32,928 nucleotides of DNA, from positions 1-32,928 of the IMG/VR virus record IMGVR_UViG_3300031785_000026. One strand, given 5' to 3'. This DNA is from a virus. The notes under the pieces were generated by a model. That model had not been told where the DNA came from and did no database searches. It saw only the letters and a program-made list of their open reading frames with translations. Positions within the stretch are counted from its first letter, which is position 1. Each line of letters starts with the position of its first letter. The translations under genes and the position numbers were made by a program. Shown piece after piece: positions 3,670-24,017 of this stretch.

Positions 3670-3698
3670 TATATAGGTTATAACTACCCTAGTGTCAA
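3670..3698 (-). promoter_or_regulatory. Consensus sigma70-type promoter of the candidate small RNA
   Basis: TTGACA at 3693-3698 and TATATA at 3670-3675 are separated by exactly 17 bases. The -35 box overlaps the stop codon of the zinc-ribbon gene (3695-3697). Start of transcription is expected near 3664. No start codon for a sizeable gene follows before the terminator. Confidence 0.75.
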
Positions 3699-3976
3699 GA
3701 CATATCATCAATAATGCTTGAAGAGTTAACATGAGTTGGGTTTCTGCGTACTCTGCCAACATCATTTTCTTTTAAAGCTCTTGGATCATCCTCAAAGAAA
3801 GCTTCCTCTTCTACATAAACTGATGGCTTCATGCCAGTTAATGTTTCTTTTTTTGGTGCAAACTTATTTGTCTCTGCTGTCTCGCATTTTTCACATAGGG
3901 GTTTTTTCTTATTTTTAATTTTATGTGCAAGTATAAGTCTTGGACATGAGCTGCATCTTTCATATTTTCCTATCAT
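3695..3976 (-). CDS. Small zinc-ribbon-like protein
   Basis: The ATG at 3976 is chosen over one at 4012 because it lies six bases after a perfect AGGAGG; the product is then 93 residues. Near its N-terminus are two CxxC pairs, CSSC and CEKC, about 18 residues apart and separated by a basic stretch (HKIKNKKKP), the layout of a zinc ribbon that could bind nucleic acid or a protein partner. The rest is acidic (YVEEEAFFEDDPRALKE) and ends in a polar tail. It overlaps the end of the cytosine methyltransferase by 17 bases and is the last gene before the small RNA promoter. The exact function is unknown. Confidence 0.65.
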   Translation of the reverse strand: MIGKYERCSSCPRLILAHKIKNKKKPLCEKCETAETNKFAPKKETLTGMKPSVYVEEEAFFEDDPRALKENDVGRVRRNPTHVNSSSIIDDMS

Positions 3977-5363
3977 TCTCTGCCTCCTTAATAGAGTAAA
4001 ATATTCTTGCAACTACTTGGGGCACAATACTATTCCCTAAACATCTAAGTCTGTGTACCCTGTTGGGTACCCCATTAGCCACTCTACCCACGTTGGGTTC
4101 AGCGTTCCAGAGGACTGGTCTCTCACGGAAGGATGATTGCCTAACATCTTTTGCATCTTCCCCCCTGGACGACCCGCTGCATCTTCGTTTGCCGATGGTG
4201 TAGGGAACATCTCCTTTTTGGGATAATTCCATTTCTCCATTCTTGGTGGTCTGAGCGTGCAACCCAGCATCTGTTCTGCTTGTTGTTCGGTCATCTCCCC
4301 GGCCTCTACTTTCTTTCTGAAGATCATTGTCTGACCCATTGATGCGTGTCCGTACCCCTTTGTTGTCGGTGTTGGCCACATTATTTCTTTCTCTGCTATG
4401 AATGTCCCTAGAGTGTGTGCTCTCGTTCCGTTCTTTACTGAGGGTGGTACTGTGTATCCGTCCTTCCAATCCCTTGCTCTTGGTGTTGGAAACATCTTCA
4501 CTTCGTCCACTAATGTTATCGCACTTGATCCGTCTTTCTTCACTTTCTCGTAAAGTTCCTTGCTCTTCGGACCTTGCTTGGCATTCGCTGCTGTTGGTGT
4601 CCTCCACATCTTCACGCTGTCTGCTAAGTTCAGACTGTGACTGCTCTTGCCGTCTTTGCTCAACCTCCTGTTGTTCGTTGTCAACTCCGCCTCTGGGTGT
4701 TCTATCTCCTGAGTTGTTGGCGTTGGCCATAAGGTCGAAGATGTCTGTTTGTATAAATCCATTGTCTTCTCGTCCACTTGTTCCCTCAAGTTCGCTGGCT
4801 TTGTTCTGCCCTTGCGATGACCCTCCATTAATTTGTTCGTTCCCTCTTCTGAACGTGGAGGCAGATGATCCATCGTGTTCGGAGTAGCCCACAATCCAGC
4901 ACCGCATTCGTCTATGTTTGGCATCGACGGCTGCAGCTGGAATAAGATATGGGATGGCTTTGTATCCGATACTTTCCAAGTCAATGAGACTTCTTCTGAG
5001 ACCCATTGGCATTGTAACAAAGCCTGACACATTTTCGCCAATGATCCATTTAGGCCGTATGTCTTCAATAACCCTAACCATTTCGTGCCAGAGGTCTCGG
5101 TCATCTTCGCTGCCTCTCTGAGCTCCTGCGACACTCCAAGGCTGACATGGGAATCCTCCAACAACGATGTCTGCATCTTTGTATTCTTTTCCATTAAAAC
5201 TCCTTATATCACTATATATTGGTACATCTGACCAATGTTTACGCAAGACTTTTTGACAATATTCATCTCTTTCAACAAAAGCTATTGTCTCAAAGCCACC
5301 TACTATTTGTTCTGCAGCATAGCTAAATCCACCTATACCACTAAATAAATCTACTATTTTCAT
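3960..5363 (-). CDS. dcm: DNA C5-cytosine methyltransferase
   Basis: This 467-residue enzyme transfers a methyl group to C5 of cytosine in DNA, most likely protecting phage DNA from host restriction. Motifs are in the canonical order: DLFSGIGGF (5-13, cofactor), GGFPCQPWS with catalytic Cys73, GENVSG (ENV at 110-112), HRRMRCWIVG (about 150-159), and the C-terminal VPNRVHRLRCLGNSIVPQ of motifs IX-X. The ~270-residue part between them is long, charged and low in complexity, with repeated (A/S)N(T/A)xxxG segments. This part is also coded in the +1 frame. The ATG at 5363 is chosen because it forms an ATGA overlap with the upstream PP-loop gene and starts right at motif I. G+C is clearly higher between about 4040 and 5130 than at the two ends of the gene. 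Confidence 0.93.
   Translation of the reverse strand: MKIVDLFSGIGGFSYAAEQIVGGFETIAFVERDEYCQKVLRKHWSDVPIYSDIRSFNGKEYKDADIVVGGFPCQPWSVAGAQRGSEDDRDLWHEMVRVIEDIRPKWIIGENVSGFVTMPMGLRRSLIDLESIGYKAIPYLIPAAAVDAKHRRMRCWIVGYSEHDGSSASTFRRGNEQINGGSSQGQNKASELEGTSGREDNGFIQTDIFDLMANANNSGDRTPRGGVDNEQQEVEQRRQEQSQSELSRQREDVEDTNSSECQARSEEQGTLRESEERRIKCDNISGRSEDVSNTKSKGLEGRIHSTTLSKERNESTHSRDIHSRERNNVANTDNKGVRTRINGSDNDLQKESRGRGDDRTTSRTDAGLHAQTTKNGEMELSQKGDVPYTIGKRRCSGSSRGEDAKDVRQSSFRERPVLWNAEPNVGRVANGVPNRVHRLRCLGNSIVPQVVARIFYSIKEAENDRKI
4037..5194 (-). CDS. Overlapping +1-frame gene inside the cytosine methyltransferase
   Basis: A 385-residue frame lies wholly inside the methyltransferase gene in its +1 frame. 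It is not an ordinary shadow: its ATG at 5194 has AAGGAG five bases ahead, and the product has the features of a phage protein family I recall as common and of unknown function. It has SLTWK and LLFQL-like (ILFQLQPSMP) segments, then repeated [WF]PTP/RTP units (LWATPNTMDHLP, LWPTPTTQE, MWRTPTAAN, MFPTPRARDWKDG, IMWPTPTTKG, MFPTPSANEDAAG), and the tail LNPTWVEWLMGYPTGYTDL. The repeats and tail fall over the target-recognition region and motifs IX-X of the methyltransferase. Either both frames are translated, or this family is a conserved by-product of dcm sequence. The start site argues for translation. Confidence 0.5.
   Translation of the reverse strand: MEKNTKMQTSLLEDSHVSLGVSQELREAAKMTETSGTKWLGLLKTYGLNGSLAKMCQALLQCQWVSEEVSLTWKVSDTKPSHILFQLQPSMPNIDECGAGLWATPNTMDHLPPRSEEGTNKLMEGHRKGRTKPANLREQVDEKTMDLYKQTSSTLWPTPTTQEIEHPEAELTTNNRRLSKDGKSSHSLNLADSVKMWRTPTAANAKQGPKSKELYEKVKKDGSSAITLVDEVKMFPTPRARDWKDGYTVPPSVKNGTRAHTLGTFIAEKEIMWPTPTTKGYGHASMGQTMIFRKKVEAGEMTEQQAEQMLGCTLRPPRMEKWNYPKKEMFPTPSANEDAAGRPGGKMQKMLGNHPSVRDQSSGTLNPTWVEWLMGYPTGYTDLDV
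5195..5203 (-). promoter_or_regulatory. Ribosome-binding site for the overlapping +1-frame gene
   Basis: On the minus strand GGAG (5200-5203, within AAGGAG) is followed by TTTTA and the ATG of the embedded frame. In the methyltransferase frame these bases encode IRSFNG, a position with no reason known to me to hold a Shine-Dalgarno site, so its presence supports internal initiation. Confidence 0.55.
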
Positions 5364-14486: not shown

Positions 14487-14906
14487 AATTAAGCGATTCG
14501 CTCTTTTTGTTACCTGTTTGTGCCAACGGCTGTCTTCCATTTGCACTGCACATTCTTGCCAGTCGTTATTAAGTAAGGCGGCATGAAACTTTTTAAATTT
14601 TGAAAATCTTGGACGGCCAAGATTAAACATCATGTTTGCACATATTTTTTGTACTTCATCTGGTAAATTATTAAAGTTAGAAAATAGTTTTTCACATTCG
14701 CTTATAGTAACTTGTATGTCTTGCTCAAATAGTTCATTAACTCTTTCATCATCAATACGAGTTCCGACTGGCAATCCATACTCTGGGTCTGATTCTACCA
14801 CCAAGTGGCCTATCCCAATCGTGGGTAGCGATAAATGGTCTAAATACACGGCATTAACACGACCCTCGTCTCGTTCAATTTCTTGCCTTAATTCATCTAT
14901 GTTCAT
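14457..14906 (-). CDS. T4-type lysozyme (glycoside hydrolase family 24), endolysin
   Basis: The 149-residue enzyme cuts the glycan strands of host peptidoglycan at lysis. Its start closely follows T4 lysozyme: MNIDELRQEIERDEG, then YLDHLSLPTIGIGHL. The catalytic triad is visible as Glu14, Asp23 and Thr29, with the same 9- and 6-residue spacing as Glu11, Asp20 and Thr26 of T4. Later features are MMFNLG near the middle and WHKQVTKRANRLISRM. Without a signal peptide it needs a holin, which is not seen here. It is joined to the large virion gene by an ATGA overlap, so it is expressed late with the structural genes. Confidence 0.93.
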   Translation of the reverse strand: MNIDELRQEIERDEGRVNAVYLDHLSLPTIGIGHLVVESDPEYGLPVGTRIDDERVNELFEQDIQVTISECEKLFSNFNNLPDEVQKICANMMFNLGRPRFSKFKKFHAALLNNDWQECAVQMEDSRWHKQVTKRANRLISRMRSVEST

Positions 14907-17900
14907 TGAAAAATATCTCCAAATTGATTTACACTTGCAGTTAATAATGATTTAGGATCACGTTGTCTTGATGCTATGGCTTGATCTATTGGAGACAAAC
15001 CCAAAGCAGCACCTGTTCCAGGTTGAGTAACGTCAATTTTGCCTACATTTGCAATAGGACTTGCCGCTTGTATTCCACTTAATTGTCCAGTTGTATTTGA
15101 TGTTACATCACTAATTGCTTGATTAATACCAGTATTCTCTGCAACGGCTTTTATTTGATTTGAGGCCTCATTTACATTTTCTTGTGCTGATTGTGTAACA
15201 ACTTGGCCTGGACGAAATGCTTCAGATATAGATTGTAGAAACGCTCTTTGCTCTGCCACAGTCGGATTTGGATTTGCATCAAGTTTTTTTGATGCTTCAA
15301 CTATTTGCTTCATTGCTTTTCTACCAGTAAATAATTGACCTAACACAAACATTTTAGCTATTCTGCCTACATTATTAAATACATTAGCTAATATGCCTTG
15401 AGCAACTAAATCACCTTTTGGTATGTTATTTGAAGCACTATCTATAATTTTACCAAAATCTCTAATGTTACCTGCTATATCTTTTGTATCTCCAGCATTT
15501 GGAAAAATTATATCTAACTTATTGCTTTTATCTATTCGAGCTATGTTTCTAGCTAATTTTTTCATTGATTCAGCATTTGTTGCAGCACCAACATTATCAA
15601 CCATATTTTCTACAAAAGCACCTCTAATTGTTTTTAAGGCTTCGGGATTGTCTTTATAGAAATCCATCACAGCTCTTAAATCTCCACGAGTTGCACCAGG
15701 AGACATGACTAAATCTAAAGCTTCCTCTGGATCTAAAATATTCCTATCTATTTTTGCAAACACACTATTAGTTCTAAGTCTTGATGTTTCTTGAAGTTCT
15801 TTAACTGCACCATTCAAAGCTTGTGCCACAGAGCCTTGTGCATCTAGTCCTTGACTTACTAATCTTTCAATTGTTTCTTCATTAAGTTCAGTAATTTTTA
15901 AATCTTCAAATTGTTTAGCTACAGTTTTTAATCTGTTATATTCTGCTCTGCCATATAACTCTGCACCAGTTTCTCCTAAATCATCTAATGCTTTAATAAA
16001 CTCATTAGGTTTAAAGTTGCCTGGATTAATAGAGTCAAAACCAGTTTCTTTCAACGCCCCTCGCAACCAATCTTTACCTATTTCTGTTTTGATTTGACTG
16101 TATTTATCTGGCTCGGTTTTAAGAGCCTCTTTTAATCTATTAAGACCAGTTGGCTTACCACCACTTCCAATGATCTTTGATGCTAAACCACTCAATGATT
16201 CAGGTCTTGCTATATCAAAAGCACCACCTCTCATTTTATTAATTAATTCTTTCGATCCTAATGTTGTAGATATGTCATCATATAATTTTGTACCCTCTCT
16301 AAAGTGCTCTCTAGCTTTTGGCAAAAGTTGAGCCGCTTTTTGTATTTTAGTAAAAGCTTCAGACCCTAATTCATCTGTAATTTCTTTTGTTAGAGCGTCT
16401 ATATTAGAGCTGTTGAGCAACCCATCTACTTGACGAATTGCTTTATCCCACGATTTACTTAAATTAATTGATCCATTAATTAACTCTTGTTGAGCTACTT
16501 CGTCTGCATTTTTTGGTGCATTTTTTATATCCCATAGCTTTCTTCTAAGTTGATAAGCATCTGTAAAAGAAACTTTATCGCCTAACTCTCTTAATTCATC
16601 TGCCAAAGATAAACCAACTCGTCCTTCGTCAGTACTTAATCTACCAGTGCCTAATTTTTCAAATTTTCTTGAGATATTTTCTGCCAAGTCTTTTAGTCCA
16701 GCAGTCGGTATAATTCTAGCATCGCCAATAGCTTCTTCTATAACCTCATTAATTGTGCCCCATTGTGTGCTCATGGTATCTTCAAAAGTCTTCGCAGAGG
16801 TTTGAACTAAATTAAATATTTCATCATCAATAACTTGATTTCTTTGCAAACCACCAGCTAAATTATCCGCAGATTCTTTCAAGGCACTCATAATAGACGC
16901 ATAAGCAGCAGATTGTCTGCGTGCTAACTCTGGTCCAAATTGTTTATTAAAATCTAAAAACAATTGTCCAGCAGATTTGCCACTACCCTGTGTTTGTGCG
17001 TCAGCAATAATTTGATTTAATTTGCCAACTTGTTCTCTCATAGCTGTAGCTAACTTTTGTGTTCTTGGCGATCCACCTAAAACACTTTCTTGTAATTGTT
17101 GAAACTTAGCAGCAATAGGTCTAGCACCTATTTGTCCTAATGTAGGCTCAATGCCCATCTCAATACCTTTTGCAGTAAGTCTTAATTGTTCAGGACTTGA
17201 TTCTGCAATAAATTTTTTACCAGATGGTGCTATACCTCTCATAACTAACAAAGGCACACCAAACAACAACTCACCTGCGGCAGCTATCCCACCTTCAACG
17301 GCAGCGTCTGTCACTATCTCTCCAGCAGTTTGTTTTGATACACCAGCAACACCTTCAATTGCTTCTTCTACAAGTGATCCAGTACCCCCACCTATAAAAG
17401 CACCTATTGCACCACCTAATAACGTACCAAAGCCTGGAGCAACTCCAGTTCCTATGGTGGCACCTTTTATTGCACCAGTAATACCACCTGCTAATTCGGG
17501 GACTATTCCAACCAAATCAGAAAGGTCGTTTTTACTAAAACCTTCTTCATCAATCAAAGTATTTTTGTCTGTTTGAACACCTACTTTTGCAGCACCACTT
17601 GGTGTTAATGCCAATCTACCTCTATTATCTCTTATGTAATCTTTTTGAGAAAAGCCTTGTGCCGCTAGTATGCTTTCTTCTTCTGCATTATTTTCTGCAG
17701 CAGACAACGCTGCTCTTAATCCAAAATCTTGTATTCCACTTTTAGTGTCAAAGTTTGCTTGTTGTGGTTGACCTTGTGGTGTTGTTCTAGCTGATTTAGC
17801 TAGTAAATCTTCAAAGGTTTCTTCTGTCTTATCTGGCCTAGAAAAGAATTGTGAACGAATAGCATTTGCTTCTTGTTGTGTAGGTGTATCACCAGCAATT

Positions 17901-17947
17901 TCTACTTTAACAACGCCTTGTGGAGTTTCGACATTAATGATTGCCAT
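14903..17947 (-). CDS. Large internal/ejection virion protein with glycine zipper
   Basis: At 1014 residues this is the largest product in the window. It begins MAIINVETPQGVVKVEIAGD, with TPTQQEANAI after it, a start I associate with large phage internal proteins. Residues about 150-215 form a Gly/Ala-rich stretch with regular GxxxG spacing (GAIKGATIGTGVAPGFG, LLGGAIGAFIGGGTG), well suited to membrane insertion. Most of the rest is long alpha-helix rich in Lys, Glu and Ala, like the internal head proteins that form a channel through the cell envelope at DNA entry. It lies in a row with three other likely virion proteins, directly before lysozyme. It starts in a TAATG overlap. The role is inferred from position and composition. 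Confidence 0.7.
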   Translation of the reverse strand: MAIINVETPQGVVKVEIAGDTPTQQEANAIRSQFFSRPDKTEETFEDLLAKSARTTPQGQPQQANFDTKSGIQDFGLRAALSAAENNAEEESILAAQGFSQKDYIRDNRGRLALTPSGAAKVGVQTDKNTLIDEEGFSKNDLSDLVGIVPELAGGITGAIKGATIGTGVAPGFGTLLGGAIGAFIGGGTGSLVEEAIEGVAGVSKQTAGEIVTDAAVEGGIAAAGELLFGVPLLVMRGIAPSGKKFIAESSPEQLRLTAKGIEMGIEPTLGQIGARPIAAKFQQLQESVLGGSPRTQKLATAMREQVGKLNQIIADAQTQGSGKSAGQLFLDFNKQFGPELARRQSAAYASIMSALKESADNLAGGLQRNQVIDDEIFNLVQTSAKTFEDTMSTQWGTINEVIEEAIGDARIIPTAGLKDLAENISRKFEKLGTGRLSTDEGRVGLSLADELRELGDKVSFTDAYQLRRKLWDIKNAPKNADEVAQQELINGSINLSKSWDKAIRQVDGLLNSSNIDALTKEITDELGSEAFTKIQKAAQLLPKAREHFREGTKLYDDISTTLGSKELINKMRGGAFDIARPESLSGLASKIIGSGGKPTGLNRLKEALKTEPDKYSQIKTEIGKDWLRGALKETGFDSINPGNFKPNEFIKALDDLGETGAELYGRAEYNRLKTVAKQFEDLKITELNEETIERLVSQGLDAQGSVAQALNGAVKELQETSRLRTNSVFAKIDRNILDPEEALDLVMSPGATRGDLRAVMDFYKDNPEALKTIRGAFVENMVDNVGAATNAESMKKLARNIARIDKSNKLDIIFPNAGDTKDIAGNIRDFGKIIDSASNNIPKGDLVAQGILANVFNNVGRIAKMFVLGQLFTGRKAMKQIVEASKKLDANPNPTVAEQRAFLQSISEAFRPGQVVTQSAQENVNEASNQIKAVAENTGINQAISDVTSNTTGQLSGIQAASPIANVGKIDVTQPGTGAALGLSPIDQAIASRQRDPKSLLTASVNQFGDIFQ

Positions 17948-19860
17948 TATGTTGTGCCTTGTACTTTAAATCTAAATACACCATCTTCGCCTTGCACCAT
18001 ATCTGAATCTTTTGCCGTTATATTTTGATTATCAATATTAATTCCATGTATGGCTAAATTATTATAAGCATCTTTAATATTTTCTCTGCCTCTTTTAACG
18101 ATAACATTAAATAAATTGCTGAGTTTTGATCTAAGCACGGCTTCGTCACCCTCTAAAAAGTTAACATCACCAACAATTTCTCTTACAAATTTTCTGTCTG
18201 CATCTGATAATGTTTTTCCAGACTCTTGTAATATTTCTGCGGCATTTGTGGCTTGTAATCTTTGCATAATAACTTTGATTTGCTTTACTGGATCTGTATC
18301 ACCAACATTAATTCCAAAATTTCTCAATGTTTGCTTGATTACTGATCTGCCTTGATCCAATACAGTTACATCAGTCGTGTTTAATAATTTAGCTAATTTT
18401 TCAAATTCTTTAGCGTTATAATCAACTTTTCTTTCCATGTTTTGTATCATGCCAACAACTCTCTTGCCACTGTCTGCAAAATATGGAGTGGTGCCAGCAG
18501 GTGCAACATTGCCATCGGGTAGTTGTGCTTTAAAACTTAATCCTTTTGGTGCTCCAGCGTACAGAGGGACATCAACAGATTTACTCTGATAAATTTTATT
18601 TTTGCCCGCAGCATCAAGGGCGGCTTTTGCATAATCTTTATAATAGTCTGCATCAACTATATCAAATTGTTTTGCAAATTCAGGGTTAGTATCCAAGCTA
18701 TTTAATTCATAACTATTTAATCTAGCTAATCTGCCTTGACCACTTGCTATCGCACTAGATAATGAGTTTGCACTACCATCACCTTTTGGTATGACAAAAT
18801 AAGCTTTTCTGTTCATAGCCTCTTTTTTATCTTTTTCAGTTTTACCTAGTGCATATGCTCCAGCCTTGGCTCTTATCGCCTTTGCTTCTGCTACTGCTTT
18901 TCTAAAGTCTGGCATTGCCGCTTCTCCAGCTTCTCCAGTTGCTCTCAATATATTGCTTATATTAAAGCCTTTACCAGCTCTATTTTGCATTAACGCTAAT
19001 CCAAAAGACATTAAAGCTTGTTTAGTGTCTGCCTCACCCGATATGTCTAAACCAGTTGCTTCGCCAAACTCATTGATATATTCATCAAATGTTTTTGGCT
19101 TAACTTTATCTCCAGTTTTAATTTCTGACAAAAACGAATCTAAAGCTTGTACTGTAGCTTTTTTTGCTGGTGTATCTGCACCTTCTACTTGATCCTCTCC
19201 AGTTCCAGTATCTACAGCTGGAAATTCAGTGTCTGCATCAACACCACCTGCTCCCTCTTCTTCAAAAGGAACGCCTTGAAATTCTTTTGCTTGTTTCTCT
19301 ACCGCATCAATATCTGCTTGTGTTGTGGTTGTCATGCCGGGATCAAAAGCACCAAAGTCTGGTCGGCTCTTTCTGATTACATTACCTATAAGATTCTTTG
19401 CTTCAGCTTGTGCTTTGTCTAAAACATTTTTTCTGTCTTCTGGATCCATCGTAAAAATAGTTCCAGCGTCTACTTTTTTTGCATCAGCTGGCAACCCTAT
19501 TTCAAGTCCACCAGTTCTTCTAGCCATTTCTTCTGCTCTTCGCAATCTACCAAGTTCGCTTTCTTGATCTAAAACTTCATCAAGTGATTTGCCTGCAGAA
19601 CTTAAAACCCCACCTTTAGGTTTAAAAAAATCAAATATACCTTTTACTGGTGATGTCATTGTTCTTAAAATACTATCAGCTATTGTGCCACCTGTAAAAA
19701 TTCCTCTATCATCAAAAAATTCTTTGTCTGTTGTTGGTCTTCTTTTTTGAGAATAAAGTTGACCTAAACCTTGTGTTCTTGGAGTTGTTAATAAATTTAC
19801 CGCTCTTCTTCGAGCTTCAACGGGGTCAAAAGACAAAATACCTTGATTTTTAGGAGCCAT
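17947..19860 (-). CDS. Large virion-associated protein
   Basis: The 637-residue product starts at ATG 19860 behind AGAGGG and ends in a one-base TAATG overlap with the 1014-residue protein. It opens with a basic region (FDPVEARRRAVNLL, SQKRRP), contains an acidic linker around 200-225 (FEEEGAGGVDADTEF) and a long helical, Ala-rich centre (LRATGEAGEAAMPDFRKAV, AEAKAIRAKAGAYALGK). I see no enzyme motif. In size, order and composition it fits the second of the large ejection-type proteins found between the tail genes and lysozyme in short-tailed phages. Its exact place in the virion is unknown. Confidence 0.65.
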   Translation of the reverse strand: MAPKNQGILSFDPVEARRRAVNLLTTPRTQGLGQLYSQKRRPTTDKEFFDDRGIFTGGTIADSILRTMTSPVKGIFDFFKPKGGVLSSAGKSLDEVLDQESELGRLRRAEEMARRTGGLEIGLPADAKKVDAGTIFTMDPEDRKNVLDKAQAEAKNLIGNVIRKSRPDFGAFDPGMTTTTQADIDAVEKQAKEFQGVPFEEEGAGGVDADTEFPAVDTGTGEDQVEGADTPAKKATVQALDSFLSEIKTGDKVKPKTFDEYINEFGEATGLDISGEADTKQALMSFGLALMQNRAGKGFNISNILRATGEAGEAAMPDFRKAVAEAKAIRAKAGAYALGKTEKDKKEAMNRKAYFVIPKGDGSANSLSSAIASGQGRLARLNSYELNSLDTNPEFAKQFDIVDADYYKDYAKAALDAAGKNKIYQSKSVDVPLYAGAPKGLSFKAQLPDGNVAPAGTTPYFADSGKRVVGMIQNMERKVDYNAKEFEKLAKLLNTTDVTVLDQGRSVIKQTLRNFGINVGDTDPVKQIKVIMQRLQATNAAEILQESGKTLSDADRKFVREIVGDVNFLEGDEAVLRSKLSNLFNVIVKRGRENIKDAYNNLAIHGINIDNQNITAKDSDMVQGEDGVFRFKVQGTT

Positions 19861-19862
19861 AT

Positions 19863-20795
19863 TTACCCTCTATTTGCCGTAGGTCCACCACTAAAAGGTG
19901 CTATTTGTGATAATGTTGTATATGCACCAATACCTTGCAAAAATGGATTTGCAGCTGGTTGTGTGGCTTGTGTAAATGTTGATGGAATACTTGCACTTGG
20001 CATACCTTGAAGTAAGTTTTGACCTAGTTGTAACCTTGTAAAAGGCTCTTGTGCTTGTTGCAACAAATTAGCTCTGTTTGCATCTAGCTCTGCTTGTTGT
20101 TGTCTTTGTCTTAATGCACCTAATTGTGTTAATTGAGATATGTCTGCTTGACCCAATGCTTGTTGTAAACGTCCAATATCACTTGTTGTACCAGCTAAAG
20201 TGCCAAAAGCTTGTCCAAGACCACCAGATAGTCTTCCAGCCTCTTGTGAAGCTTTTAAAGCTTGTCCAAAGCCTTGTGATAACAACTTTGATAATGTATC
20301 AGACTTAACTTGTTGTAGTCCTCTATCCCTTTCAGACTCTAATACCGCTTGTCTTGAACCACCAAAGGCACCACGACTTGCGGCTTGAGCTGCATCTTGA
20401 TTTCTTGTTATATCAGCCTGCCTATCCAATTCACGCATTGCAACGTCAATAACTTGATCACGGAAAGGATCTTGAAATTTTTGTATAGAATCAGGTTGTA
20501 AAAAACCTAATCCACTTGTTAACGCTTGTTGTGCTGCTGTTGCTTGATCAGAAGCACCTTGTAAAAAGGGTTGAGAGCTACCAACCATTTGTTCGCCTAA
20601 TTCAGCTGCTTTCGTAGTAAGTGGATCAGCACCCGCAATTTGAATTGAAGGCAACCCTAATTGAGTGTCAAGAAGACCAGGGGTAGTCTGGTTTGCACCA
20701 TCAAATTCACCAAATGCAGTTTGTAACAATCTTTTTTGAAGACCTTCTAGAAAAGGAGGTAATCTTTGTATATTTTCATAAGTTTGAACTGCCAT
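19863..20795 (-). CDS. Internal virion-type protein, Gln/Ala-rich helical
   Basis: The 310-residue product is rich in Gln, Ala and Leu and mainly helical. A recognisable segment runs from FQDPFRDQVIDVAMRELDRQ to GAFGGSRQAVLESERDRGL (key parts DPF..QV, RELDRQ, RGAFGGSRQA). From memory this is widespread in marine short-tailed phages, where the gene sits with hub and ejection proteins. Helical repeats with LGQ/LRQRQQQAELDANRANLL suggest coiled-coil packing. A role in the internal core or tail needle assembly is inferred. The ATG overlaps the stop of the upstream gene as TAATG. Confidence 0.65.
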   Translation of the reverse strand: MAVQTYENIQRLPPFLEGLQKRLLQTAFGEFDGANQTTPGLLDTQLGLPSIQIAGADPLTTKAAELGEQMVGSSQPFLQGASDQATAAQQALTSGLGFLQPDSIQKFQDPFRDQVIDVAMRELDRQADITRNQDAAQAASRGAFGGSRQAVLESERDRGLQQVKSDTLSKLLSQGFGQALKASQEAGRLSGGLGQAFGTLAGTTSDIGRLQQALGQADISQLTQLGALRQRQQQAELDANRANLLQQAQEPFTRLQLGQNLLQGMPSASIPSTFTQATQPAANPFLQGIGAYTTLSQIAPFSGGPTANRG

Positions 20796-21645: not shown

Positions 21646-21876
21646 CTATGTAACAATTTTAATTGTCCCACTATCGTTAAATAATGCTCCAGTTTCTAAA
21701 CCACTAGAACTGGTTGGTAAATCAGTTAATGTAATTTTTGTTGCTCGTAATTCACCAGGATTTCTTTCTTGTGAAATAAATATCTCTAAAGAACGAACTA
21801 GATCCTCTACATATTGTCTAGTTATAACTTCAGGTGGTTCTGGTAACCTTGGTGGTGGTACGCCAACTAACGCCAT
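21646..21876 (-). CDS. Short structural-cluster protein, 76 residues
   Basis: This small product starts with a proline-rich segment (MALVGVPPPRLPEPPEVI), followed by a helix (RQYVEDLVRSLEIFISQE) and a polar end with LTDLPTSSSGLETGALFNDSG, a pattern common at the ends of phage fibre and neck proteins. It follows the gp10-like hub gene by a TAATG overlap and precedes the internal protein genes after a 32-base gap. Its place suggests a small tail or neck component; nothing more can be said. Confidence 0.6.
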   Translation of the reverse strand: MALVGVPPPRLPEPPEVITRQYVEDLVRSLEIFISQERNPGELRATKITLTDLPTSSSGLETGALFNDSGTIKIVT

Positions 21877-24017
21877 TATCTTCTTCCGTCTTCCCTAATA
21901 TCAACTCTAGGTGTTCCCATCTTAAATTTACACCCTAATGCACTAGAATCAAGTCTTATTGCAAAAGATCTGCCTCTAATTCTATAATCTAGTTTTTCTG
22001 TAAACTGTTCAACTGGACTTGTTGCGGTTCTTGATGTTGTGCCCGTGCCTGTTTGATCAAAGTCAGAACCAGGAAAATCTCTTGCTTTGACTGTAAATGT
22101 TGCGTTTGGAGAACTGCCTGTTACAGATCCAGTAAATGTTAAATCTGGTATGACTCTTTTAAGTGATACAAACTTATCTCCGTCCCCTATGTCCATAGGA
22201 GCAGTTTCTATAAACGCAGTCATAGCAGAGGTGTCATCATCAAATCCAGACTCATGATTAAATAAATGTGGTGTGCTTGCAGCAATAGGAAAATTTCTTA
22301 TGCCACGATCTAACCAAGCTGTTCTTGATAAAGTTCCAAAGTACCACACCTTTTCTACATAATTCCAGATAACATATTTATCATTCTCTGATGCACCCGC
22401 TGATGGATAGAACCACCACACCTCACCAAACTCAGAATTAATACCCGCAACAACTTTATCTTTTTCTTCTAGGTTAAAGTTTGTAAAAACTTCATCTTTG
22501 ACTGTGCAAGGCAATTGTGCAGTTTGTCCAGCGTGTACATAAAAGTTGTCAATGCCCATCCAATATACCACATCCTCTGTAGCAATAGCTGCACTTGGGG
22601 ACATAATAGTTATATTAGATGCAATTTGTGTAATACCAAAAGTAAATGGCGGACCTATAAATCTCATGGAATGTAAAGACTTATCGGTATAAACAAGTAT
22701 TTCTCTTTTTGTTTCAACGGCTTGTACAAAAGTAGAGCCTGCACCAAGTCTTAAATCACCTGCAGTATTTGTTGCAGTTGGAAACCAGTCTACTGGATTT
22801 TCTTGACTACTAAATCTTATAAGTAAGGGATCTTGTACACCATTTCCTTGTGCAGCACTACTACTAGAGTTTACTGCATCACAACCAAAAGCTATAACAT
22901 GACGATCAACATCAGATACTAAAACTTGTTTTGCTATGGTAGGCACACTTTTTTCTCCACTAAACGTAGAGGTTGCACTAAGTTCTATAGCTCTAGCACT
23001 TGTGCCTAATGTTTTATCCCAATAAAACAAACTACTATCTCTTGCATTTATAATTAAATCTTCACCAAAATTGTCGTGTGACCAAGTTCTAATTTGTGCA
23101 CCAGGCACTGTAACACTTGCAGCATCACCCCAACCTACAAAGTCATCATCAGATGAGGCATTACCTTCAATTAAAAATACAGTTGTTCCATCTGCATGAG
23201 TGGCAGCCGTGGTTCCGTTTTGTGCTCTTGTTACTGTTAGATCGTTAGTAGATACATTTGTTACTTTTAAAATTTCTTCATCAATTAATATAAAATCATT
23301 GTTTGCTATACCAGTGCCACTTGTTACTGTGAGTGTCGTGTCTGAATCACTAAACGTACCGCCTTCATTTATTGTTGTTGATAAAGCACCACTTGTTGTA
23401 CCGCTCCATTGACCTGCACCCCAACCTGTGCCACCAACTGTATTATCTAATCCTGTGTTTATTTGATATGTTCCCACTGTGCTACCACCACCATTACCAG
23501 AATCTGATGAAGTAGCTGCAACGGCAGAAGTTATTGTGTAAGTATTAGAATTTATAAAAGTTTGTATTTGATATTCTATGTTTAAAACATCAGCTGTGAT
23601 ATTACCACCTAAACTAGCCGCGTCAGAAAAAGTTACAAAATCACCTGCTATAGCTCCATGTGCTTGATCCGTTACAGTTATTGTTGTTGACCCATTTGTT
23701 GCAGCAAAGGTAACGTCACCAGCACTTGTTGTGCTTCTAATAGGTGTGATATCGTTAAAAGTTTGACCTTCTTCAATATAATATTTTAAATGTGATCCAA
23801 CACCCAAGAAGTCAGATCCATCAAGAGCAACCCAGTTATGTAATCTTCTTGCTGTGCCCTCATAAGAGTTCGGACTAAATTTAACCCAACCACCTATTTT
23901 TTCTGGAAAACCAAAACGAAAACGTATCTTGTCACCATCAACATACCCACCTTCGTTAGCATAAGATGTTGTGTCTTTGATAATACCAGGTTTAAATTTT
24001 AAAGTTTTTATTGGCAT
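21876..24017 (-). CDS. P22 gp10-like tail hub / packaged DNA stabilization protein with insert
   Basis: The N-terminus (FKPGIIKDTTSYANEGGYVDGDKIRFRFG, key parts KPGI, EGGY.DGDKIRFR and PEKIGGW) matches the P22 gp10 tail-hub family, which seals the portal after packaging and attaches the tail fibres. Typical later parts are DPLLIRFSSQENPVDWFPT, REILVYTDKSLHSMRF, YVIWNYVEKVWYFG and CKFKMGTPRVDIREDG. At 713 residues it is some 240 longer than P22 gp10. The surplus is a Ser/Thr/Gly-rich beta stretch at about residues 95-290 containing ILIDEEILKVTNVS and TRAQNGTTAATHADG, which looks like an added beta-sandwich module. The ATG overlaps the upstream stop (TAATG). Confidence 0.83.
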   Translation of the reverse strand: MPIKTLKFKPGIIKDTTSYANEGGYVDGDKIRFRFGFPEKIGGWVKFSPNSYEGTARRLHNWVALDGSDFLGVGSHLKYYIEEGQTFNDITPIRSTTSAGDVTFAATNGSTTITVTDQAHGAIAGDFVTFSDAASLGGNITADVLNIEYQIQTFINSNTYTITSAVAATSSDSGNGGGSTVGTYQINTGLDNTVGGTGWGAGQWSGTTSGALSTTINEGGTFSDSDTTLTVTSGTGIANNDFILIDEEILKVTNVSTNDLTVTRAQNGTTAATHADGTTVFLIEGNASSDDDFVGWGDAASVTVPGAQIRTWSHDNFGEDLIINARDSSLFYWDKTLGTSARAIELSATSTFSGEKSVPTIAKQVLVSDVDRHVIAFGCDAVNSSSSAAQGNGVQDPLLIRFSSQENPVDWFPTATNTAGDLRLGAGSTFVQAVETKREILVYTDKSLHSMRFIGPPFTFGITQIASNITIMSPSAAIATEDVVYWMGIDNFYVHAGQTAQLPCTVKDEVFTNFNLEEKDKVVAGINSEFGEVWWFYPSAGASENDKYVIWNYVEKVWYFGTLSRTAWLDRGIRNFPIAASTPHLFNHESGFDDDTSAMTAFIETAPMDIGDGDKFVSLKRVIPDLTFTGSVTGSSPNATFTVKARDFPGSDFDQTGTGTTSRTATSPVEQFTEKLDYRIRGRSFAIRLDSSALGCKFKMGTPRVDIREDGRR

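Follow-up and report, generated by a model that had tools for sequence, protein, structure and literature searches.

Motif IX and probable target-recognition cassettes in a second reading frame nested within a phage cytosine-5 methyltransferase gene

The gene for the small subunit of the methyltransferase M.EcoHK31I is nested, in another frame, within that of the large one. The enzyme, which recognizes YGGCCR, comprises two polypeptides, the larger harboring motifs I-VIII and X and the smaller only motif IX, and a second enzyme, M.AquI (CYCGRG), is split between motif VIII and motifs IX-X (PMC3404938). The multispecific C5-methyltransferases of Bacillus phages (SPR, phi3T, SPbeta, H2 and phiBssHII) carry tandem recognition domains and have several targets (PMC8936443 and its references 45, 56-59). 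We have analyzed a stretch of viral DNA of 32,928 nucleotides (the window; IMG/VR record IMGVR_UViG_3300031785_000026), in which a long C5-cytosine methyltransferase frame, alpha, encloses a second gene, beta, in the +1 frame (Table 1). As in M.EcoHK31I, the gene of the putative small subunit lies within the large one in another frame, with motifs I-VIII and X in alpha and motif IX in beta. However, the predicted target-recognition domain of M.EcoHK31I belongs to the large subunit, whereas in the window the selected sequence between motifs VIII and IX lies in beta, as part of a family with 1-9 modular units, and the corresponding bridge in alpha is unconstrained; also unlike M.EcoHK31I, pairs of the window type are borne by phages or prophages. 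The motif division of M.AquI is seen in five split loci (L044, L078, L121, L136 and L149), but the window differs from M.AquI in having motif X in alpha and fully nested genes. The tandem units occupy the place that corresponds to that of the recognition domains in the Bacillus phage enzymes, between VIII and IX; those enzymes, in contrast, are single chains read in one frame, whereas the units of the window reside in a second subunit encoded by an overlapping frame, and we detected no sequence family in common between the two. We propose that the locus very probably encodes a two-subunit DNA-(cytosine-5) methyltransferase in two frames, with probable recognition cassettes in beta.

Table 1. 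Features of the nested pair (positions in the window)
Feature	Position	Strand	Remark
alpha, C5-cytosine methyltransferase frame, with motifs I-VIII and X joined by a long bridge of low complexity	3960..5363	-	PF00145/TIGR00675/phrog_363
alpha motifs I-VIII (aN profile), codon-phase pattern of coding alpha frame	4893..5363	-	
alpha bridge, VANT/VSNT peptides, shadow of beta WPTP units	4109..4892	-	alpha dN/dS 0.97; stop-free
alpha RVANGVPNRVHRLRCLGN, superimposed on beta motif IX, running into motif X	4032..4085	-	
alpha motif X (..RLRCLGNSIVPQVVARIF..)	3969..4061	-	aX profile; alpha dN/dS 0.11 past beta stop
ribosome-binding site of beta, AAGGAG, 5 nt before ATG	5200..5205	-	sequence
beta, 385-aa gene nested in the +1 frame, comprising an N-domain, six units of the WPTP type and motif IX	4037..5194	-	phrog_1008; dN/dS 0.17-0.48
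N-domain of beta (residues 1-101; region of SLTWK), overlapping alpha motifs IV-VIII	4892..5194	-	both frames constrained (R2)
unit 1, WATPNTMDHLPPRSEE..NLREQV.., 54 aa	4730..4891	-	cluster of 116 units, 115 loci
unit 2, WPTPTTQEIEHPE..SLNLADSVKM, 41 aa	4607..4729	-	23 loci
unit 3, WRTPTAANAKQGPKS.., 38 aa	4493..4606	-	8 loci
unit 4, FPTPRARDWKDGYTVPPS.., 38 aa	4379..4492	-	20 loci
unit 5, WPTPTTKGYGHASMGQT.., 57 aa	4208..4378	-	32 loci
unit 6, FPTPSANEDAAGRPGG.., 34 aa	4106..4207	-	17 loci
motif IX in beta: LNPTWVEWLMGYPTGYTDL	4046..4102	-	position and sequence match to M.HhaI 272-314 through L197

The open reading frame of alpha spans 3960-5393 on the minus strand, with a methionine start at 5363, and matches PF00145 (E 7.7e-47), TIGR00675 (E 1.6e-42) and phrog_363 (E 2.3e-70). 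Motifs I, IV (PCQ), VI (ENV), VIII and X, as expected of PF00145 members, are present, and in 27 alphas PCQ and ENV are invariant while motif VIII and LGN are conserved. Over motifs I-VI, the best solved relative is M.HhaI, to which the bridge yielded no match; the 'VANT' peptides of the bridge are the 'LWPTP' of beta read in the other frame. A preliminary description of this DNA had assigned motifs VI, VIII and IX-X to the methyltransferase frame, and this holds for VI, VIII and X (alpha has IV-VIII and X) but not for IX: a canonical motif IX is absent from the alpha chain, where RVANGVPNRV occupies that place, and the canonical motif is instead the beta peptide LNPxWVEWLMG(Y/F)P. Among the pairs analyzed, a set defined by having both ORFs, 188 of 188 harbor exactly one motif IX, in beta only, and one motif X, in alpha only. 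Because motif IX is found only in beta in every one of these pairs, alpha is, as judged by its motif content, the predicted catalytic subunit of a split enzyme and not a complete C5-methyltransferase.

The nested frame itself is as the preliminary description had it, comprising 385 codons from an ATG that stay open within the methyltransferase ORF, shifted to +1 with respect to alpha, with AAGGAG five bases ahead of the ATG and with SLTWK, the WATP/WPTP/WRTP/FPTP units and LNPTWVEWLMGYPTGYTDL all present; the bases behind 'VGRVANGVPNRVHRLR' also read as 'WVEWLMGYPTGYTDL' in the other frame. Its placement in a family of unknown function stood in part, as Pfam and NCBIfam recognize no family in beta, but PHROGs contains phrog_1008, labeled 'DNA methyltransferase', with a match of E 1.9e-31. 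A profile search of beta against the PDB gave no match, and the IX-X piece gave weak PDB matches only, one of these being a plant DNA methyltransferase that shares the motif. AlphaFold models of beta alone were of low confidence (pLDDT 42 for the beta of the window and 54 for a short two-unit beta from L167) and did not support a recognition-domain fold. By virtue of the same frame, position and motif IX, we recognize as betas the members of phrog_1008, the 'g55 internal gene' of Paenibacillus phage Shelly and the 'Mte8-like' ORF30 of Escherichia phage K1G, which have been annotated as separate or internal genes with no account of what they do; the internal gene is not discussed in two Paenibacillus phage genome papers. 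Over 188 loci, a Shine-Dalgarno sequence of at least 4 nt precedes 81% of the presumed beta ATGs vs. 23.5% of other ATGs internal to alpha, and the presumed ATG lies most often 160-180 nt past the start of motif I. The presence of this conserved start with its Shine-Dalgarno sequence, together with the two shifts per molecule that frameshifting would need, favors separate initiation of beta.

To gauge openness by chance, we shuffled synonymous codons in one frame and counted stops in the other. Shuffling of alpha codons in the window predicted 2.2 stops in the beta frame over the motif IV-VIII part and 3.6 over the WPTP part, with none observed; the reverse shuffle of beta codons in the WPTP part predicted 9.2 stops in the alpha frame, again with none observed, and no shuffle had zero. 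For the codons of the window, chance thus does not account for the openness of either frame; the totals of expected stops summed over 187 loci are illustrative, given that the set was chosen for having both ORFs. Selection was examined in 35 disjoint pairs of homologues (70-97% identical), in which differences were classified by their codon position and by what they change in each of the two frames, the alpha ratio being dNN/dSN and the beta ratio dNN/dNS. Before the overlap, alpha dN/dS is 0.14, with changes falling at alpha position 3 (0.29 per site vs. 0.09 and 0.04). Under the N-domain of beta (R2), the alpha ratio is 0.23 and the beta ratio 0.48, as compared with 0.80 for the same frame outside beta, with no reversal in the bootstrap; the beta-frame ratios in the non-beta controls are 0.80 and 0.73. 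Under the WPTP units (R3), changes shift to position 3 of beta codons, corresponding to alpha position 1 (0.25 vs. 0.07 at alpha position 3), with alpha neutral at 0.97 (0.82-1.17) and beta constrained at 0.17 (0.14-0.20). Both frames are constrained at motif IX (alpha 0.46, beta 0.17), and past the beta stop, where alpha is alone again, its dN/dS is 0.11. Purifying selection is thus seen on both frames in R2 and R4 and on beta only in R3, with alpha there selected only for openness. Because the substitution pattern flips frame under the WPTP units, beta is, by this measure, the strongly selected protein in the middle of the gene and alpha the passive one, and dual coding is near certain to be real.

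We searched with beta in IMG/VR, GTDB genomes and annotated phages and plasmids, and recovered nested pairs in phages or genomes of Bacillota, Pseudomonadota, Bacteroidota, Treponema, Acidobacteria and others, with the bacterial genomes probably representing prophages. In a count that did not require an open alpha, 189 of the 199 loci in which motifs I-VIII, IX and X could be placed keep both frames open and carry IX in +1 and X in frame 0, the loci having been collected through beta, with alpha-only relatives uncounted and some loci being near copies. Stops in the +1 frame are not frequent among these homologues. The remaining ten comprise five loci with both IX and X in the +1 frame, two with one or two stops in alpha and three other cases. 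No stand-alone beta was found among the 199 loci with landmarks, and a single-chain form, in which one frame would hold everything from I-VIII through the units to IX and X, was not found. Two arrangements are of note for their duplications: at L089 (120-2200) the pair is duplicated in tandem, the second alpha being devoid of the N-terminal motifs and the second beta intact with its own ATG, and at L221 (1380-2990, Paenibacillus polymyxa plasmid pAP1) there are two copies of motif IX in the beta frame with stops between them, which suggests that the end of beta has been duplicated in part.

The exceptional loci serve as natural experiments. In L044, L078, L121, L136 and L149, motif X lies in beta, which thus comprises units, IX and X in one frame, and the alpha frame ends right after motif VIII, beyond which stops occur at about the chance level in four of the loci and are fewer in L078. 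At L044, 'LNPDWVEWLMGYDRGWTDL' and 'RVAKGKKNRAKRLKGLGNAVLPQ' are arranged in tandem in one frame; their counterparts in the window share one set of bases, each read in its own frame. The beta of L064 runs on for ~690 nt once alpha has ended and gains five further WPTP units there, in a region where frame 0 has stops. In L197 and L214 (Rhodococcus phage ReT1v-1), IX and X are both in the alpha frame and the units in +1. The L197 chain, with IX and X in one piece, aligns without gaps to M.HhaI 272-314 (motifs IX-X), an alignment that is short and of weak score (-1 bit) and convincing mainly by position. The methyltransferase of L214 (1400-2520), an actinophage, has been annotated in pieces, and its units are of the LPTP type. 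Based on these split and exceptional loci, we suggest that what keeps the alpha frame open may be solely the need to link motif X with the catalytic part. The preliminary description had also proposed a search for relatives of the +1 frame outside a dcm gene; the units past the end of alpha in L064 answer this in part, but a beta devoid of any alpha partner was not found among the 199 loci with landmarks.

In 193 betas we counted 688 WPTP units, defined as beginning with W/F-x-T-P or a close variant, with 1-9 per beta and a median length of 41 aa. These sort into recurring discrete types that are found across phyla, and units shared between betas can be 80-98% identical even where the N-domains are only 11-32% identical (98% in a case with N-domains at 32%). 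Close relatives show insertion and replacement of whole units, as exemplified by the beta of L007, which is 97% identical to that of the window and has one whole unit inserted. The order of shared units is mostly kept (2451 pairs in the same order, 154 inverted), and the exchange of units is therefore not free shuffling. By these patterns the units are modular, and, in common with tandem recognition domains, they are variable stretches of ~40 aa lying in tandem between VIII and IX and exchanged between enzymes. Comparison with characterized target-recognition domains in Pfam, NCBIfam and the PDB disclosed no homology. We surmise that the WPTP units are probably exchangeable target-recognition cassettes.

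The preliminary description had left two readings side by side, a true long dual-coding pair, with a possible part for the second product in target recognition or antirestriction, or a conserved shadow frame misannotated as a gene. That the +1 frame is a shadow, open and family-like only through conservation of alpha, might be argued from the N-terminal third of beta, which lies over the conserved alpha motifs IV-VIII, shows moderate constraint (0.48) and has its 'TSG' and 'LTWK' coinciding with conserved alpha codons. However, this reading is next to impossible and is refuted by the flip in codon phase and the split loci: in the WPTP part alpha is neutral and beta under purifying selection, beta continues where alpha is dead (five loci) or has ended (L064), and Shine-Dalgarno sequences are enriched at its start. 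The dual-coding pair is borne out by the same data, with a +1 frame that has a dN/dS of 0.17 in the WPTP part, persists without an open alpha and carries motif IX. A different way to use both frames would be programmed frameshifting into one chain, with I-VIII in frame 0, units and IX in +1 and a return to frame 0 for X. The frames do join exactly past motif VIII, and single-chain C5-methyltransferases share this motif order, but inclusion of X would require two shifts per molecule, and frameshifting would leave unexplained the Shine-Dalgarno start of beta, the selection on its N-domain and an alpha bridge that is stop-free only when X is in frame 0; we consider it highly improbable.

Granted that beta is a real nested protein, it might still serve other than as a recognition subunit, e.g. 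in antirestriction or regulation, and overlap with alpha by chance. The WPTP units have neither a structural nor a sequence link to known recognition domains, and their function is read from their arrangement, which would fit such a role; on the other hand, motif IX resides in beta alone, each pair has a single IX and a single X, in the split loci X too is carried by beta, and no beta lacks alpha among the 199 loci with landmarks. We therefore deem a beta unconnected with recognition improbable, and a role of beta in the methyltransferase likely. An alternative of more weight, albeit an unlikely one, is that the units are not separate cassettes, with the array forming one scaffold or the units acting as spacers and specificity lying elsewhere. 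Some betas with one or two units still look complete, and the largely conserved order of shared units would agree with a scaffold, but the discrete unit types recur across phyla decoupled from the N-domain, and whole units are inserted or replaced among close relatives, as in the multispecific Bacillus phage enzymes.

Returning to the two-subunit methyltransferase, the motif placements and substitution patterns show that both frames are real, with motif IX in beta and motif X in alpha. Alpha, translated from the long frame, would supply cofactor binding and catalysis (motifs I-VIII) plus motif X, with its VIII-X bridge kept stop-free but with amino acids that are not selected, and beta would initiate inside alpha at its own Shine-Dalgarno sequence and ATG, contributing motif IX and six WPTP units of ~40 aa in place of the usual target-recognition region between VIII and IX. 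We infer that the two chains associate physically, with beta as the small, DNA-recognizing domain, and that the units, each or in combination, most likely set a target sequence; the enzyme may then methylate phage DNA at several sites, shielding it from host restriction. If so, exchange of cassettes would alter the methylated sites of a phage while the two frames stay in phase. Going beyond this locus, we lean towards the view that it typifies a widespread class of phage enzymes, in which a recombining array of cassettes, read in a second frame, holds the methylation specificity, while the part of the catalytic gene beneath it stays open solely so that the last motif can be reached. Related phage and prophage sequences with the nested pair number about 190 and, with 1-9 cassettes each, constitute a large natural dataset on variation in phage methylation specificity and on selection shared by overlapping frames. 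That the WPTP or 'LNPxWVEWLMG' proteins are real bears on many annotations: the VANT-rich middle of many 'Dcm-like' proteins is a passive bridge and not a recognition domain, target specificity predicted from the annotated methyltransferase chain alone would make use of the wrong reading frame, and alpha cloned or recoded alone is expected to yield an incomplete enzyme.

Several other genes of the window merit mention. Two very large ORFs on the minus strand (14903-17947 and 17947-19860, 1014 and 637 aa), with no PHROGs match at 1e-5, have as neighbors a DNA-ejection-like protein (19863-20795) and a virion structural gene (21876-24017). Directly upstream of alpha and overlapping its start is a phosphoadenosine phosphosulfate reductase-like gene (5360-6205, minus strand; phrog_424, E 1.5e-46), and the annotation of Phage C72C1 (L006) places such a gene immediately downstream of its methyltransferase. 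The stop codon of alpha is overlapped by a small ORF (3695-4012, minus strand) that follows in the same direction and contains paired cysteines (..CSSCPRL..CEKCE..), and an ORF of similar size begins at the same place in several relatives (L007-L010).
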